DNA of 46,706 bases from the NCBI GenBank assembly GCA_027484965.1, contig JAIXRY010000009.1:1-46706 (forward strand), written 5' to 3'. Source of the stretch: a bacterium (GTDB taxonomy: Bacteria; Patescibacteriota; Minisyncoccia; Phycocordibacterales; UBA9973). Each line of letters begins with the position of its first letter. The first letter of the stretch is position 1. Below, in pieces: positions 1,760 through 15,051 of this stretch. The position numbers and the translations under genes were made by a program. The notes under the pieces were generated by a model, which worked only from the letters and a program-made list of their open reading frames with translations, made no database searches and was not told where the DNA came from.

Positions 1760-4700
1760 ATGTCCCAATCAAACGAAAATAAAAATAAATCTGCAAATGC
1801 ACTTCGTGAAGAAGAAGTTTTAAAATTCTGGAAAGAAAATCAGATTTTTGAAAAGTCTGTAGAGAATCCTGCTGATGGTAAGCCTCGCGCTGACTACGTC
1901 TTTTATGATGGACCTCCATTTGGTACAGGACTCCCACACTACGGACACTTGCTCGCAGGTACTATCAAAGATGCTTTTCCACGTTATCACACAATGAGAG
2001 GTGAGTCTGTTCGTCGTACTTGGGGATGGGATTGTCATGGGCTTCCTGTTGAGAATCTTATTGAAAAGAAATTGGGATTAAATACTAAGAAAGATATTGA
2101 AGAATATGGTGTAGATAAATTCAACACTGAAGCATGTAATAGTGTTCTAGAATTCCGTGAAGATTGGGAGAAGATTGTACCTATGACAGGACGCTTTGTA
2201 GATATGGAGCAAGATTACAAGACAATGGACGCCACCTATACTGAGAGTATTTGGTGGATATTTTCTGAACTCGACAAAAAAGGACTAATCTATCAAGGTT
2301 ACAAACCAATGCACCTATGTCCACGCTGTGAGACAACACTTTCAAACTTTGAAGTGACACAAGGGTACAAAGATATTACAGATATTTCTGTGTATGTAAA
2401 AATGCAAATCAAGAATGAAAATACATACTTCTTGGCTTGGACTACGACACCTTGGACTCTTCCAGGGAACGTTGCTCTTGCTGTCGGAAAAGATATTACG
2501 TATGCATATATAAAAATAAAAAATACAGACGCAGGTGATGCTCAATTTATTCTTGCAAAAGATAGAATTGAAAATGTTCTAAAAGGAAAAGAATATGAAA
2601 TAATAAAAGAAGTAAAAGGAGAAGATCTTGTTGGTATATCTTACGATGCGCCTTTTGATTATTACCAAAAAGATGATTCTCTAGAAAATCATGAAAGAGG
2701 CTGGAAGGTGTGTGCAGGAGAATTTGTAACGCTCGACGCTGGTACTGGTATTGTGCATATTGCACCAGCTTTTGGTGAAGACGATATGAAGCTTGGTCAA
2801 TCAGAAAAGCTTCCGTTCGTTCAGCATGTGAAGACAGACGGACACTTTAAAGAAGGGGTGACTCATTTTGCGGGAATGCAAGTGAAGCCAAAAGATAACC
2901 ACCAAGCGACTGATATTGAAATTATAAAATATCTTGCACACAATCATTATCTTTTTGAAAAAGAAAAAATTATTCACTCATATCCACATTGTTGGCGTTG
3001 TGATACTCCACTTCTTAACTATGCTTCAACATCATGGTTTGTTGAAACTACAAAATTGAAAGATAAGCTTATTGCTGCAAATCAAGAAGTGACTTGGATT
3101 CCAGAACATGTGAAGGATGGACGTTTTGGAAATTGGCTTGAGAATGTTCGTGACTGGGCGATATCTCGTAGTCGTTATTGGGGTGCACCGCTACCTGTAT
3201 GGTTTGGTGAAGAATCAAAGAAAAAGTACGTTATAGAAAGTGTTGAAGAACTAAAGAAATATACAAAGAAATCAGGGAATAAATATTTTGTTGTACGACA
3301 TGGGCAAAGTGAAGCAAATGTTGATCATACTATTAGTTCTCAAGATATCAGCATACATCCACTAACAGAACAAGGTAGAGAAGAAGCAAAGAACGCTGCT
3401 CACAAAATTGAAAAACCAGATATAATTATTGCTTCTGATTTTTTGCGTACAAAACAAACAGCTGAAATAATAGCTGAACATTTTGGTATAGATAAAAGTG
3501 AAATCAAGTTTGATCAAAGGCTTCGTGAAATCAATGCTGGAGATTTTAATGGAAAAACTTGGGAAGACTATGATCAATACTTTTCAGATACAGAAGACCA
3601 TCTAACAAAGACTCTTCCAAATGGTGAAAATTCGATGATGGTAAAACAAAGAGTAATGTCTTTATTGTTGGAAGTTGATAGTGAATATAAAGATAAGACA
3701 ATTTGTATTGTAAGTCATGGTTTGCCTTTGTATATGATGTGGTTGGGTAAAGACGGTTTAAACAATCAACAAATAATAGATAAAGATTGGGAAGACCACT
3801 TTGAACAAACAGGTGAGGTTAGAAATTTTGAATTTATTCCATTTTCTCATAATGTAAATTACGAACTCGATCTACACCTTCCATATATCGACAGGGTAGA
3901 GCTTGTAGATAATGGAGAAAAACTCGTTCGTACAAAAGAAGTCTTTGATTGTTGGTTTGAATCAGGAGCTATGCCTTATGCTTCAATCCATTATCCATTT
4001 GAGAATAAAGAATTATTTGAAACACAATTCCCAGCAGACTTTATTGCAGAGGGAATGGATCAGACACGTGGGTGGTTCTACAGCCTACTCATTCTTGGTG
4101 TAGCGCTCTTTGATAAGAGTCCTTATAAGAGAGTTGTAGTAAACGGAATTATCCTTGCAGAAGATGGGCAAAAAATGTCTAAGAAACTCAAAAATTATCC
4201 AGACGTTACTGAAGTATTGGAGAAATATGGAGCAGACGCACTTCGTTACTATATTCTTTCATCACCTGCAGTAAAAGGAGAAGAGCTTCGTTTTTCTGAA
4301 AAAGATTTGGCTCAAATATCAAGTCGTGTTGTAGGTAGACTTCTCAATGTATTTTCTTTCTATGAGCTCTATAAGAAAGACGGTATTAATTTAGAAATAG
4401 AAAGTACTCATGTGCTTGATCAATGGATACTTGCTCGTCTCTATCAACTTCTTTCTGAGATAGAAAACGGAATGGAGATGTATGAATTAGACAAAGCTGT
4501 GCGCCCGATAGATTTGTTTGTAGATGATTTGTCTACATGGTATCTTCGTCGCTCACGTGATCGTCTGAAAGATGGAGATGGTGAAGCAATTGCTACTTTG
4601 TACAGAGTACTTAAAACTCTCTCTCAAATGATTGCGCCGTTTATGCCTTTCACAGCTGAGTATATTTGGTTAAGATTGAAATCTAAAAATTCAGCAGAAT

Positions 4701-8105: not shown

Positions 8106-8678
8106 ATGTCTTCCGAAATAATAAAAAAAGCAAAAAAGGTATTTTCTGGCGTTGTCTGGGATATTTATCAGTGGGAGCAAGAAATGTTTGATGGAAGTTT
8201 CAAAACATTTGAAATGGCTTATAGACACAATGCTGTGGCAATAATTCCAATTGTTGGAGATAAGATATTGATGCAAAAAGAAAGACATCCTCACTGGACT
8301 GAAGTAAAACTCGCAATACCGGCAGGAGAGTCAGATCATCCAGGTATTCCTCCTATTGATGACGCAAAAAGAGAGCTTCTCGAAGAAACTGGTTATATTT
8401 CAGATAACTGGATCTTATGGAAAGAAACCACAGAAAGTCAAAAATTGCACTGGCCAATACGTGTGTTTATTGCTCGTGATTGTGTTGATACAGGTGAAAC
8501 AAATCCAGACATTGGAGGTGAACAAATAGAAACAATGCTTGTTAGTTTTGATGATTTTTTAAAGCTCGTTGTTTTTGATAAGAGTTTTAGAAATAAAGAA
8601 ATCGTTCCTGACTGTATTCATGCTTTTTACAATAAAGAAAAATACGACGAACTGAAAGAAATATTTTTTGGAAAATAA
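8106..8678 (+). CDS. Nudix hydrolase
   Basis: PAGESDHPGIPPIDDAKRELLEETGY resembles the Nudix box, with a slightly irregular N-terminal half. Confidence 0.85.
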   Translation: MSSEIIKKAKKVFSGVVWDIYQWEQEMFDGSFKTFEMAYRHNAVAIIPIVGDKILMQKERHPHWTEVKLAIPAGESDHPGIPPIDDAKRELLEETGYISDNWILWKETTESQKLHWPIRVFIARDCVDTGETNPDIGGEQIETMLVSFDDFLKLVVFDKSFRNKEIVPDCIHAFYNKEKYDELKEIFFGK

Positions 8679-9250
8679 TGCATCATATTCATCATACACA
8701 CGCATTTGTTATTTCTCACAAAGATTTGGGTGAAGCAAATCGTCTTTATACTATCTTTACAAAAGAACTTGGAATGGTGACAGCAACCGCACAAGGTGTA
8801 AGAAAGATGTCTTCTAAACTTCGCTTTACTCTACAGAGCGGCACTTACATAAAAGTTGATTTTGTTAGGGGAAAAGAAATGTGGAGAATCACCAGCGCTT
8901 CTCCTCTCGAATCTTTTGATTCTCGTGATACAGCTCGTAATATTGTTTGGTTAAGAATACTTGGATTACTCGCACGTCTGACACAAGGAGAAGAATCTCA
9001 TCCTCAAGTTTTTTCTCATGTCTTTACCGTTTTTGAAACAATTAAAAATGTTCCAGAAGAAGAGCTAGCAAATTTTGAAATCATCTGTTTTATAAAACTC
9101 CTTTTTTCTTTTGGTTATTGGGAAATTATAGAAGGAGATGAGTCTATTGTTGCCGGCTCTTACAATAAAGAAATGTTTGATTTTATAAGTGGAAGAAGAA
9201 CTGTCCTTGTTTCGCGTATTAATAATTCACTTAGTGCTTCGCAGCTCTAA
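8678..9250 (+). CDS. recO: DNA repair protein RecO
   Basis: N-terminal OB-type HTHAFVISHKDLGEANRLYTIFTKELGMVTATAQGVRKMSSKLR. Confidence 0.85.
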   Translation: MHHIHHTHAFVISHKDLGEANRLYTIFTKELGMVTATAQGVRKMSSKLRFTLQSGTYIKVDFVRGKEMWRITSASPLESFDSRDTARNIVWLRILGLLARLTQGEESHPQVFSHVFTVFETIKNVPEEELANFEIICFIKLLFSFGYWEIIEGDESIVAGSYNKEMFDFISGRRTVLVSRINNSLSASQL

Positions 9251-9287
9251 CATTTTACTTTTCTGCCGTGCTATAATTTATAGTATT

Positions 9288-11156
9288 ATGGCAGACAATT
9301 TAGATCATATCGAAGAATTAAAAAAGCGCCTTTTTATGGCGAAAGATGAAAAATCTATTCCAGAACTTCGCGAGCACACATTGCATAATCCGAGGTATCA
9401 GGTTGCCAAAAAATGGACCAAAGAAACTATTAATACTACAACAAAAATTATGTCTCACGGATCATTGTTTAAGAAATTTTTTATTGGATCACTACTATTA
9501 CTTCTCGGATCTTTTGGGTTTTTTGCATATATGTTTTTGCAAGGTAATAATACTGTATCAAATGATAATATTGATATTGCTATATTAGGTAATGCTTTTG
9601 CAAAAGGTGGAGAACAATTACCAATACAGGTTTCTATTGCTAATAAAAACAAATCGTCTATTTCTAGTGTTGATCTCGTATTATCGTATCCAAAAGGAAG
9701 CGGCACTGACGCTACTTCAGAATATATTCGCTTACGCAAAACTGTAGGCACTATAGAGTCAGGCCAAACCAAGACCGAGCCATACAATCTCGTCTTATAC
9801 GGTGAACAAGGAACAATTAAAAATATTACAGCTTCAGTTGAATATAGAGTTTCTGGTTCAAATGCACTTTTTGTAAAAGATTCATCATTTATAGTGACAT
9901 TATCTGAGGCGCCTATTTCACTTGTTGTTGATGCTCCAGAAATGATTGGTTCAAATCAAGAATACAATCTTTCTATAAAGACAACTCTTAATGCTGAGAG
10001 TGCAAACAAAAACATGGTTCTCGTCCTCGCGTATCCTCCTGGATTTTCTTATATCGCTTCAAGTCAGAATCCGATGGTAGGAAACACTGTTTTTGATTTG
10101 GGGGATTTGCGCCAAGGCGTTCCAAAAACTATAACTATAAAAGGAAGTCTTGTTGGTCTCGACAAAGAAGAACGTTCGTTCCAAATATATGTAGGTGAAC
10201 AAAACAAAGATAAGCAATCAAGTATTGGTGTTATTTACAATTCACTACTTCAGAATGTAATGATTACAAGACCTTTCCTTGATGCACATCTTATAATTGG
10301 CGGAGAAGATAAACCAGTATATTCAGTGAGTGGTTCTACACCTATTAATGCGAAGATTATTTGGTCAAATAATGCTATTACTCGCATTGCTAACGCTCAA
10401 GTAACTTTGCAATTTGAAGGGCAGGCTCTCGATAAGGAATCTGTTATTGTTCCAAATGGTCGCTATGATGCACGTAACAATCTGATTGTATGGGATCAAG
10501 ACACTACACCAGAATTCGCATCGCTCGAGCCAGGAGCAACTGGTGATCTTGATTTTACAATTACAGCCAAGAATATTTCTGGAACTTCTTCTAATTCTGA
10601 TATCCAAATGAATGTTGGAATAAGAGGAGAACAATCAGGTGATGGGCTTGGACAACAAACTATTTCAAGTGTAGACAAAAAAACTCTTCGCTTTGGTGTT
10701 GATTTCCAAATCGCCCAAAGTGCGAGCTTCTTGCAAGGTCCATTCAAAAACTCTGGAACAAATCCACCTAAGAAAGGCTCCGAAACAACATATACAATCA
10801 ACTGGACACTTTCTCCAGTCCAAAATGTTGTTACAGGAGGAGTAGCAAAAGCCGTGCTTCCAATTGGAGTAAGATGGGTTGGTAAGACCTCTCCTGACCT
10901 TGAAAGAGTTTCTTTTAATTCAGCTACTAGAGAAATTACTTGGGATATCGGCACTATAAAACGCAGTACAAGCAATCTTGTGCGCCAAGTATCTTTCCAA
11001 GTTGGTGTTACTCCTTCAGCTTTTGATACAGAAACAACAACACTTTTGATGGGGGAGCTCAATGCGACAGGAACAGATACCTATACAGGTTCACCTGTGA
11101 AGGACACCAAAAGAGAATTAAATACTCGTATTGTCGATGGAAAATCTGTTAACTAA
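9288..11156 (+). CDS. membrane-anchored surface protein with repeated beta-sandwich domains
   Basis: ATG at 9288 (MADNLDHIEELKKRL...), one TM segment (FFIGSLLLLLGSFGFFAYMFL), then repetitive extracellular-type sequence. Confidence 0.8.
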   Translation: MADNLDHIEELKKRLFMAKDEKSIPELREHTLHNPRYQVAKKWTKETINTTTKIMSHGSLFKKFFIGSLLLLLGSFGFFAYMFLQGNNTVSNDNIDIAILGNAFAKGGEQLPIQVSIANKNKSSISSVDLVLSYPKGSGTDATSEYIRLRKTVGTIESGQTKTEPYNLVLYGEQGTIKNITASVEYRVSGSNALFVKDSSFIVTLSEAPISLVVDAPEMIGSNQEYNLSIKTTLNAESANKNMVLVLAYPPGFSYIASSQNPMVGNTVFDLGDLRQGVPKTITIKGSLVGLDKEERSFQIYVGEQNKDKQSSIGVIYNSLLQNVMITRPFLDAHLIIGGEDKPVYSVSGSTPINAKIIWSNNAITRIANAQVTLQFEGQALDKESVIVPNGRYDARNNLIVWDQDTTPEFASLEPGATGDLDFTITAKNISGTSSNSDIQMNVGIRGEQSGDGLGQQTISSVDKKTLRFGVDFQIAQSASFLQGPFKNSGTNPPKKGSETTYTINWTLSPVQNVVTGGVAKAVLPIGVRWVGKTSPDLERVSFNSATREITWDIGTIKRSTSNLVRQVSFQVGVTPSAFDTETTTLLMGELNATGTDTYTGSPVKDTKRELNTRIVDGKSVN

Positions 11157-11174
11157 ATGGTATAAAAGAAATAT

Positions 11175-12470
11175 ATGGAAAAAGATAGTGTTTTAATGGA
11201 AAAGATTATATCTCTCGCAAAGCGTCGAGGTTTTGTTTATCAAGGTTCAGATATCTACGGAGGACTCGCTGGAACATGGGATTATGGGCATCTTGGAGTT
11301 GCTTTGAAGAATAATATAAAAGGTCTTTGGTGGAAGAAGTTTGTGGATGACCGTCGTGATATGTACGGTATTGATGCGGCAATCTTAATGCATCCAGGTG
11401 TATGGAAGGCAAGTGGTCACGTGGATACATTCACAGATCCTCTTGTGGAATGTACAAAATGTAAAAAACGTTTTCGTGCAGACCAATTAGAAAAAGCAGG
11501 TATTTGCGATTCTTGTGGAGCGCCTACAGGTGAAGCTCGCAATTTCAATATGATGTTTCAAACTCAAGTTGGAGCTGTAGAAGATTCGTCTGCAACAGTG
11601 TACCTTCGTCCAGAAACAGCTCAAGGAATGTTTGTTAACTTCAAAAATGTTGTGGACTCATTCCATCCTAAGCTTCCTTTTGGAACAGCTCAAATAGGTA
11701 AGGCGTTCCGAAATGAAATCACTCCTCGTGACTTTATTTTCCGTGTACGTGAATTCGAGCAAATGGAAATTGAATATTTCATCCGTGAAAATGATTGGGA
11801 AAAACAATTTGAATATTGGAAAGATGAAATGATTGAATGGATGGATATTGTAGGTATTGATCAATCAAAAGTTCATGAACTTGAAGTAGAAAAGGAAGAC
11901 CTGGCTCATTACTCACGTAGAACTGTAGATTTTGAATTCGATTTTCCTTTTGGAAAAAAAGAATTGTATGGTTTAGCATATCGCACAAATTTTGATTTGA
12001 ATATTCATAAGCTTGAATATGTTGATGAAGAAAATGCTCAGAAAATAGTACCTCACGTAATTGAGCCGTCGTTTGGTCTTGATAGAACAGTACTCGCAGT
12101 ATTGCTCAGTGCTTATAATGAAGAAGAAAAAGAAGAAGACACTCGTGTATTTTTGAAACTCAAGCCAAGTGTAGCGCCTGTAATATGTGCTGTATCACCA
12201 TTACTCAAGAATAAGCCTGAGCTCGTAGGAAAAGCTGAAGAAATATTTGGAATGCTCAAAAAAGAATTTGGACGCGTTATGTGGGATGATAATGGAAACA
12301 TAGGAAAGCGCTATCGCAGACAAGATGAGATAGGTACGCCATGGTGTATTGTTATCGACTTCGATACTCTCACAGATAATACAGTAACAATTCGCGATCG
12401 TGACACAGGTTCTCAAATACGCCTCAAAGATTATGAATTGGTAGGGTATATAAAAGATAGATTAAATTAA
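11175..12470 (+). CDS. glyS: glycyl-tRNA synthetase (dimeric type)
   Basis: RRGFVYQGSDIYGGLAGTWDYGHLG, CxxC pairs, YLRPETAQGMFVNFKNV, EPSFGLDRTVLAVL. Confidence 0.96.
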   Translation: MEKDSVLMEKIISLAKRRGFVYQGSDIYGGLAGTWDYGHLGVALKNNIKGLWWKKFVDDRRDMYGIDAAILMHPGVWKASGHVDTFTDPLVECTKCKKRFRADQLEKAGICDSCGAPTGEARNFNMMFQTQVGAVEDSSATVYLRPETAQGMFVNFKNVVDSFHPKLPFGTAQIGKAFRNEITPRDFIFRVREFEQMEIEYFIRENDWEKQFEYWKDEMIEWMDIVGIDQSKVHELEVEKEDLAHYSRRTVDFEFDFPFGKKELYGLAYRTNFDLNIHKLEYVDEENAQKIVPHVIEPSFGLDRTVLAVLLSAYNEEEKEEDTRVFLKLKPSVAPVICAVSPLLKNKPELVGKAEEIFGMLKKEFGRVMWDDNGNIGKRYRRQDEIGTPWCIVIDFDTLTDNTVTIRDRDTGSQIRLKDYELVGYIKDRLN

Positions 12471-12502
12471 ACAAAAAACTCCCCAAAAGGGAGTTTTTTG
12501 TT
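12471..12502 (+). terminator. intrinsic terminator
   Basis: ACAAAAAACTCCC caaaa GGGAGTTTTTTGTTT. Confidence 0.8.
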
Positions 12503-12529
12503 TAATAAAGATAATGGTATTATAGATAC

Positions 12530-13594
12530 ATGACAGATCGCCCAATAAATATATCTATTACCACAGGAACAGTTGTAAAAACACTTCTTATTATAGGACT
12601 TTTTGCTGTAGCTTTTCTATTGAAAGATGTTTTGCTTGTAGTTCTTACAGCTATTGTCATTGCTTCTTTTGTGGAGGTGATTTCAAATAAATTAAAGAAA
12701 AAATATAAAATACCAAGACAGATTGTTGTTTCTGTTGTTTTCTCCTTGATGCTTATAATAATAGGTACTCTTGCATATTTTATAGTACCTCTTTTCTTGG
12801 ATCAAGTTTCAACACTACTTAGTCAGATTTCAAAAGCGCTTCCAAATATAGAATTTTTAAAACCATTTCAAAGCAGATCTTTTATTCTTGGAGCACAGCG
12901 TTTTGTTGATGGAATAGGAAGTGATACGCCTATTACTGATGTTATATCTGGTTCAAGAACTTTTATTACATATATTTCAACAACTCTTTTTGATTCTGTA
13001 TCAAGTATTTTTGGAGGGTTGGTAAACTTAGTAATTCTTCTTGTTATATCTTTTTACTTATCTATGCAAGAGAGGGGTGTTGAAAGTTTCCTTCGATTAG
13101 TTACACCATTACAATACGAACCATATGTTCTCGATCTCTGGGAAAGAACAGAAACAAAAATTGCAGGTTGGGTTCAAGGGCAGTTAGTTCTTGGTCTTAT
13201 AATTGGGGTACTAACTTTTATAGGTTTGTCTATTATAGGAGTTCCGTACTCTCTTCTACTTGCTCTTATTGCTGCGGTAATGGAACTCGTTCCTTTTGGT
13301 CTTATATTTGCTGTTATACCAGCTGTTGCAGTTGCTGCCATTAATGGAGGATTCTCTAGTGGGCTTATAGTTTTATTGTTTTATATTATTATTCAACAAT
13401 TGGAAAATTATTTAATTGCTCCAATGCTTACAAAAAAGACAACAGGAGTATCTCCACTGGTTGTCATTATTTCTCTTTTGATAGGAGCTCAGCTTGCTGG
13501 ATTTTGGGGGTTAATTCTTGCTGTTCCTGGAGCTGTGCTTGTTCTTGAAATTCTAGAAGATTACGAAAAGAAAAAGCTTCCTAATAGATCATAA
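12530..13594 (+). CDS. AI-2E family (PerM-like) transporter
   Basis: Polytopic membrane protein; GVPYSLLLALIAAVMELVPFGLIFAVIPAV and QQLENYLIAPMLTKKT motifs. Confidence 0.88.
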   Translation: MTDRPINISITTGTVVKTLLIIGLFAVAFLLKDVLLVVLTAIVIASFVEVISNKLKKKYKIPRQIVVSVVFSLMLIIIGTLAYFIVPLFLDQVSTLLSQISKALPNIEFLKPFQSRSFILGAQRFVDGIGSDTPITDVISGSRTFITYISTTLFDSVSSIFGGLVNLVILLVISFYLSMQERGVESFLRLVTPLQYEPYVLDLWERTETKIAGWVQGQLVLGLIIGVLTFIGLSIIGVPYSLLLALIAAVMELVPFGLIFAVIPAVAVAAINGGFSSGLIVLLFYIIIQQLENYLIAPMLTKKTTGVSPLVVIISLLIGAQLAGFWGLILAVPGAVLVLEILEDYEKKKLPNRS

Positions 13595-13599
13595 TTTGT

Positions 13600-15051
13600 A
13601 TGACTGAAAAAAATAAAAATTTCTATATTACCACAACTTTGCCGTACGTGAATGCTGATCCACACGTGGGATTTGCTATGGAATTTGTGCGTGCAGATGT
13701 GATTGCAAGATGGAAAAAATCACAAGGATATAATGTATTCTTCAATACAGGTACAGACGAGCATGGGCAAAAGCTTTTTACTGCAGCTGAAAAAGAGGGG
13801 GTAGATGTACAAGATTACGTTGATGGATATGCAGAAAAATTCCGCGGATTAAAAGATCTTCTTGGTATAACGCAAGATGTTCACTTCATAAGAACAACAG
13901 ATGAAAATCATATTAAAGCAGCTCAAACATTTTGGAGACTTTGTAATCAAAATGGATATATCTATAAGAAAACATATCAAGCAAAATATTGTGTAGGGTG
14001 TGAACTTGAAAAAACAGACAGTGAACTCGATGATGATGGCGAATGTCCTATACACAAAGGCAGACCGATCGAACTTATTGACGAAGAAAACTATTTCTTT
14101 AAATGGAGTGCCTTCCAAAAACCACTTCTTGCTTTCTATGAAGAAAATCCAAACTTTGTAATTCCAGATTTTCGTTTCAACGAAATAAAAGCTTTCGTAG
14201 AAAGAGGACTCGAAGACTTTTCTATTTCTCGTTTGAAATCAAAAATGTCTTGGGGTATTCCTGTTCCAGATGATGAAGATCAAGTTATGTATGTTTGGTT
14301 TGACGCATTGGTAAACTACATATCAACTCTTGGGTGGCCAACTGAGTCAGAATTCAAAGACTTTTGGATATACGGAACACCTACCCAATATTGTGGTAAG
14401 GACAATCTTCGTCAGCAGTCAGCAATGTGGCAATCAATGCTTATGGCTGCAGGTATTTCAAATTCGCACAAGATTATTGTAGATGGATTTATAACAGGTG
14501 ATGGAGGGATTAAGATGTCTAAATCGATAGGTAATGTTATTAATCCATATGATGTGGTGAGTGGATACGGTACAGACGCACTTAGATTCTTCTTACTAAA
14601 AGAAGTATCCTCTTTTGAGGATTCTCCATTTACAATGGATAGATTTAAAGCGTCTTATAATGCAAATCTTGCAAACGGTCTTGGTAATCTTACTTCACGC
14701 CTTCTTAATATGACTGTGTCTTATGGTGTGTCTTTTGACCATATTACTTTCGAACCTCTTGCAAATGACGAAATAGAAAAAGCCTACAACGAATTTGATA
14801 TTGCAAAGGTGATGAATATTGTATGGGCTGAAATAAATGGACTTGATAAGTTCATTCAGGAAACAGAACCATTCAAGACTATAAAGACAAATGAAGTAAA
14901 AGCTCATAGCGATCTCAAATATGCAATTCTTCGCTTGTCTCATATTGCAACAACACTCGCTCCACTTCTTCCAGAAACATCAGAAAAAATAATTTCTTTA
15001 ATTAAAGAAAACAAAAAACCAGAACAACCATTATTTTTGAGAAAGGAATAG
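13600..15051 (+). CDS. metG: methionyl-tRNA synthetase
   Basis: TTLPYVNADPHVGFAMEFVRADV, GTDEHGQK, KMSKSIGNVINP. Confidence 0.97.
   Translation: MTEKNKNFYITTTLPYVNADPHVGFAMEFVRADVIARWKKSQGYNVFFNTGTDEHGQKLFTAAEKEGVDVQDYVDGYAEKFRGLKDLLGITQDVHFIRTTDENHIKAAQTFWRLCNQNGYIYKKTYQAKYCVGCELEKTDSELDDDGECPIHKGRPIELIDEENYFFKWSAFQKPLLAFYEENPNFVIPDFRFNEIKAFVERGLEDFSISRLKSKMSWGIPVPDDEDQVMYVWFDALVNYISTLGWPTESEFKDFWIYGTPTQYCGKDNLRQQSAMWQSMLMAAGISNSHKIIVDGFITGDGGIKMSKSIGNVINPYDVVSGYGTDALRFFLLKEVSSFEDSPFTMDRFKASYNANLANGLGNLTSRLLNMTVSYGVSFDHITFEPLANDEIEKAYNEFDIAKVMNIVWAEINGLDKFIQETEPFKTIKTNEVKAHSDLKYAILRLSHIATTLAPLLPETSEKIISLIKENKKPEQPLFLRKE

Follow-up and report, generated by a model that had tools for sequence, protein, structure and literature searches.

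A histidine-phosphatase domain lodged in isoleucyl-tRNA synthetases of Patescibacteria

The window analysed here, a 46,706-nt stretch of DNA from a patescibacterial genome of 796 kb, contains an uninterrupted forward-strand frame that encodes an isoleucyl-tRNA synthetase (IleRS) of type 2 (Table 1). Translation may begin at a TTG codon (position 1751) or at an equally good ATG (position 1760). The frame scores 878.7 bits against the TIGR00392 ileS model, above the cut-off of 621.4, and its best matches in the PDB are the IleRS structures 8c8w and 8c8u. The signatures PHYGH and KMSKK both lie within it, as do the editing motifs WTTTPWT and GTGIVHIAPAFGEDD. When the protein is aligned with solved IleRS structures (phmmer), residues 15–505 and 699–1098 pair with residues 9–478 and 479–892 of 8c8u. 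Because the two halves match consecutive residues, the segment between them breaks into an otherwise continuous synthetase. An AlphaFold2 model of the full protein, computed on an alignment of 58 homologues, has a pLDDT of 91.2 and a pTM of 0.83. Frames resembling recO, GlyRS and MetRS follow ileS at positions 8678–15051, and by eye neither of these two synthetases has an insert.

Table 1. Features of the window ileS frame and sites of phosphatase insertion in IleRS
Feature	Residues	Position	Strand	Evidence
ileS frame, type-2 (eukaryote-like) IleRS	1153 aa	1751..5212, stop codon included	+	TIGR00392, PDB alignment, AlphaFold2
HIGH-type signature PHYGH	62–66	1934..1948	+	Sequence
CP1 editing-domain motif WTTTPWT	230–236	2438..2458	+	Sequence; columns invariant or near-invariant in homologue alignment
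Second editing motif GTGIVHIAPAFGEDD	331–345	2741–2785	+	Sequence; columns invariant or near-invariant
Left junction SVEELKKYTKK, end of first half of zinc-knuckle module (Cys-less here)	497–507	3239..3271	+	8c8u alignment
Histidine-phosphatase domain, branch 1	508–698 (191 aa)	3272..3844	+	PF00300, AlphaFold2, fold matches
RHG motif (R516, nucleophile H517, G518)	516–518	3296..3304	+	Kept in 58/58 homologues
Second phosphate-binding Arg	R566	3446..3448	+	58/58 homologues
General acid	E593	3527..3529	+	E in 57/58, D in 1/58
Second catalytic His (SHG)	H656	3716..3718	+	58/58 homologues
Right junction LDLHLPYIDRVEL, synthetase restarts		3866..3904	+	8c8u alignment, homologue alignment
KMSKK signature	808–812	4172..4186	+	Sequence; invariant columns in homologue alignment
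IleRS site A: insert place of window protein
IleRS site B: directly ahead of D-C-W-F-E-S-G motif
IleRS site C: past G-A-M-P-Y motif
IleRS site D: before anticodon-binding domain

The interrupting segment is a histidine-phosphatase (HP) domain. The module that bears it is assigned as the zinc knuckle by comparison with Thermus IleRS and from the paired cysteines of relatives: in these, cysteine pairs flank the insert on both sides, and in the window protein the knuckle cysteines are lost. A first-pass annotation of the window had placed an HP domain inside IleRS at 3272–3860, with both domains apparently intact and in frame. This holds well: the PF00300 (His_Phos_1) match lies within the TIGR00392 frame, the alignment to solved IleRS breaks at that point, the span is correct to within a few codons, all four HP motifs quoted in the annotation are present, and AlphaFold2 is confident for both parts of the single frame. 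The PF00300 match covers residues 513–663 with 105.9 bits (cut-off 21.7) and is the only one in the genome. Modelled alone, the domain reaches a pLDDT of 95.7 and a pTM of 0.92. Its nearest solved structures are the phosphoserine phosphatase PspA (4ij6), PhoE (1h2e) and CobC (6e4b), with Foldseek E-values of about 1e-13 to PspA and PhoE, which identifies the HP fold.

The catalytic positions Arg516, His517, Arg566 and His656 are invariant among the Paceibacteria-type IleRS homologues of Table 1. In a wider set of 97 HP domains inserted in IleRS, the RHG motif, the second arginine and the second histidine are likewise invariant, and the acid is glutamate in 96 and aspartate in one. The catalytic residues are slightly looser in the inserts of valyl-tRNA synthetase (ValRS), and the RHG arginine is missing from 14 of 49 other HPs. 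Such invariance is strong evidence, short of proof, that the insert has retained catalysis, and judged from its residues the IleRS insert is a complete and apparently working phosphatase. The first-pass annotation had raised two ways in which the fusion might mislead, as an assembly join or as a peculiarity of one genome with degraded residues in its relatives. The invariant residues and the recurrence of the same one-frame fusion in many independent assemblies rule out both, and leave a structural pseudo-domain or an assembly artefact with a practically negligible likelihood.

Profile comparisons place the domain among the phosphatase-type HPs, below every equivalog cut-off. It scores 83.4 bits against 162.9 for the α-ribazole phosphatase CobC (TIGR03162), 59.5 against 350 for PspA (NF045917), its nearest neighbour among solved folds, and 31.5 against 81.7 for the cofactor-dependent phosphoglycerate mutase dPGM (TIGR01258). 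The last value bears on the idea that the insert supplies a missing glycolytic mutase. The window genome does have phosphoglycerate kinase and enolase, one PF00300 domain and no PF01676 mutase, leaving a step of glycolysis open. However, the insert is retained in IleRS by 23 genomes of 95% completeness or more in which enolase is absent, 18 genomes possess both the insert and a PF01676 mutase of their own, and one (G360) has a genuine dPGM next to enolase in addition to an HP gene between argS and ileS. The insert does not track lower glycolysis; the distribution of enolase and PF01676 refutes phosphoglycerate mutase as a conserved role, and the proposal that the insert fills the gap in the window genome is very improbable. 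In G360 the enolase gene and the dPGM-type HP gene that follows and overlaps it span 1365–3232 of L330, and the dPGM-type HP scores 201.6 bits against TIGR01258.

The architecture, for which the first-pass annotation had proposed a search of other genomes, is widespread. The one-frame fusion occurs in about 90 of 100 relatives (a hand count among the matches listed), and it is therefore not a product of chance. A full-length ileS is missing from six of the 100 assemblies (G002, G010, G013, G030, G032 and G096), and the IleRS of two more (G087 and G080) carries no insert. Across the class, an HP lies in a frame of IleRS size in about 95 of 143 genomes, again counted by hand among the matches listed; of the frames checked, one of 1,013 residues is a ValRS and three others are IleRS. 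Elsewhere in the phylum the fusion is sporadic, as counted by eye among the matches listed. Named records of the fusion come from Paceibacterota/Parcubacteria, including Nomura-, Wolfe-, Kaiser-, Zambryski- and Yonathbacteria. The genome searches covered Patescibacteria, a vast assemblage of very small bacteria of which most are uncultured, and a scan of GTDB species, in which the best 80 matches all look like Patescibacteria. Our search of the open-access literature found no report of an IleRS–phosphatase fusion.

Four near-complete genomes have an insert-less IleRS (G087, G293, G368 and G343). Two of these, G087 and G293, lack any HP, and their argS and ileS form a plain operon, indicating that the HP is dispensable. 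The same two genomes bear on a role as a substitute inorganic pyrophosphatase that would pull aminoacylation forward. The synthetase releases pyrophosphate and several genomes are without the pyrophosphatase family PF00719, as such a role would have it, but the window genome has PF00719 and the HP-free G087 and G293 are also without it. HP and PF00719, the one pyrophosphatase family considered, therefore do not compensate for each other, and we regard this role as highly improbable.

HP domains are found at four sites in IleRS (A–D; Table 1), in one to three copies per protein. Proteins with two copies span 1,441–1,551 residues, and one locus (L159, 1667–6382) encodes an IleRS of 1,572 residues with three HP domains at three different sites. 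ValRS carries the domain at two sites, one matching A/B and the other matching C (L187, L191). Among 187 long frames with an HP, a sample that was drawn using IleRS-type HPs and so leans toward IleRS, 166 are IleRS, 19 are ValRS, two are membrane proteins and none is another synthetase. HP domains also end a transporter-like (MFS) protein at L166 (2685–4556, minus strand) and a DedA-like membrane protein at L168 (1867–3177, minus strand). The labels on an HP tree of 165 rows require at least 19 changes, compared with 71 in shuffles. The main site-A group is separate from the site-A HPs of family f120, from the HPs of sites B and D and from several of the ValRS groups. Tree support consists of SH-aLRT values and many forks are weak, which makes the exact number of insertions uncertain; the phylogeny nevertheless points to independent recruitment of the HP, many times over, into both IleRS and ValRS.

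Other domains share these synthetases. A ValRS at L163 (827–4657) combines HAD, Ser_hydrolase and HP domains, and one at L169 (695–4537) combines Ser_hydrolase and HP. On the minus strand, an IleRS at L172 (2138–6490) contains GNAT and HP, a ValRS at L033 (1414–4458) contains HP and ASCH, and an IleRS at L042 (1214–5245) ends in a C-terminal HD domain. That non-phosphatase domains (ASCH, Ser_hydrolase, GNAT, HD) are also inserted or attached suggests that the synthetase loops are simply tolerant.

Eight genomes pair an insert-less ileS with an HP gene of its own: G434, G360, G417 and five members of family f204 (G504, G484, G543, G576 and G591). In G434, G360 and the f204 members the gene encodes about 185–200 residues and stands between argS and ileS; for G591 the argS side lies past the contig end, and a second contig of that genome shows argS–HP. 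In G417 the order argS–HP is kept and ileS lies about 0.9 kb further along. At four loci (L322–L325) the HP stop codon and the first ileS ATG overlap by 4–7 nt. Three separate-gene HPs (L153, L157 and L175) fall inside the inserted group of the HP tree. In the tree of IleRS cores, the inserted, operon/separate and absent states are mixed, with at least eight well-supported changes of state; L277 is wrongly labelled as inserted in this tree (the profile spans its flanks), and the result is used qualitatively.

A close standalone relative in G264 does not adjoin ileS, and other standalone HPs have synthetase genes as neighbours about as often as expected by chance. Outside the argS–HP–ileS lineages, direct adjacency was seen in three cases (aspS in L264 and L333, glyS in L309) among some 50–60 neighbourhoods, as judged by eye from the first residues of each neighbour. 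This level is near that of chance, and we reject the idea that standalone HPs cluster with synthetase genes in general.

These distributions frame the question of whether the HP is a passenger, that is, a housekeeping phosphatase unconnected with aminoacylation that rides, or is dosed, in permissive surface loops of synthetases that are essential and well expressed, while genomes are being reduced. The varied insertion positions, the presence of HAD, Ser_hydrolase, ASCH and GNAT domains in the same synthetases, the mixed neighbours of standalone HPs and the fact that the window genome has no other HP would all agree with this. However, the fusion partner is nearly always IleRS or ValRS, even if the sample favours IleRS; the same two enzymes received repeated independent insertions, and close HP relatives encoded separately sit between argS and ileS. 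We consider a passenger domain rather unlikely.

The explanation that we judge best, and hold tentatively, is that a catalytically competent HP on IleRS clears some phosphorylated compound, either a product of aminoacylation or one that inhibits it, perhaps AMP. The polypeptide combines two enzymes, a complete class Ia IleRS and a branch-1 HP hung in the zinc-knuckle connective module. By analogy with PhoE, CobC and PspA, His517 would accept the phosphoryl group of a phosphomonoester, which water would then release with Glu593 serving as the acid. Less certainly, the substrate may be a freely diffusing product or inhibitor, for which AMP is the simplest candidate. Fusion or operon would hold phosphatase and synthetase close together at a fixed ratio, without any hand-over between them. 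Channelling from one active site to the other is unlikely because the tether varies in position (four sites in IleRS, two in ValRS) or is cut altogether; a substrate that diffuses, or a partner that is co-expressed, would fit better. The first-pass suggestion that the HP may take part in editing, or hydrolyse an intermediate of aminoacylation, finds no support here. The IleRS keeps its own CP1 editing motifs.

The HP could instead strip phosphate from the synthetase itself, from tRNA or from the 3′ ends of toxin-blocked tRNA, in regulation or repair. The HP superfamily includes members that act on proteins, and the invariant catalytic residues, the close physical tie to IleRS and ValRS and the repeated recruitment are all compatible with such activities. 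The nearest folds and profiles, however, are those of small-molecule phosphatases, and a phosphatase confined to two synthetases would leave other tRNAs unprotected. We regard regulation or repair as unlikely.

Recurrent insertion and a coupled gene beside ileS together suggest that some phosphate-removing step matters to the charging of Ile (and Val) in these reduced cells. A further-reaching form of the preferred reading, which we offer as a doubtful possibility, is a new quality-control or product-clearing step: Patescibacteria would have recruited the HP so often because some phosphorylated compound that IleRS and ValRS produce, or that inhibits them, has to be destroyed nearby. It is well known that synthetases carry extra domains; here an enzyme domain with a different chemistry has repeatedly and independently found its way into the same pair of synthetases, at varied sites and over a large share of bacterial diversity. 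A vague question, that of the side products or inhibitors by which aminoacylation is limited, thereby becomes directly assayable.

Among known systems, the synthetase is closest to type-2 IleRS such as Priestia megaterium IleRS2 (8c8u) and the Thermus enzyme (1ile), which it resembles throughout its length, with a consecutive alignment to 8c8u and the editing, HIGH and KMSKS motifs; it differs in the 191-residue phosphatase within the zinc-knuckle module and in the loss of the knuckle cysteines. The insert shares its fold and all catalytic residues with the branch-1 HPs PhoE (1h2e), PspA (4ij5/4ij6) and CobC (6e4b), but is only about 23–27% identical to them, scores far under the equivalog cut-offs and is lodged in a synthetase. 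The IleRS with a GNAT domain (NF040702) likewise joins this synthetase to an accessory enzyme, whereas the window protein scores 323.6 bits against that model's cut-off of 1999 and its accessory domain is a phosphatase. The RNase H/acid phosphatase fusion (NF005567) also joins an HP to a nucleic-acid enzyme; its partner is a different one, judging by the family name, and the HP part of the window protein reaches 70.8 bits on this model, whose cut-off is 326.
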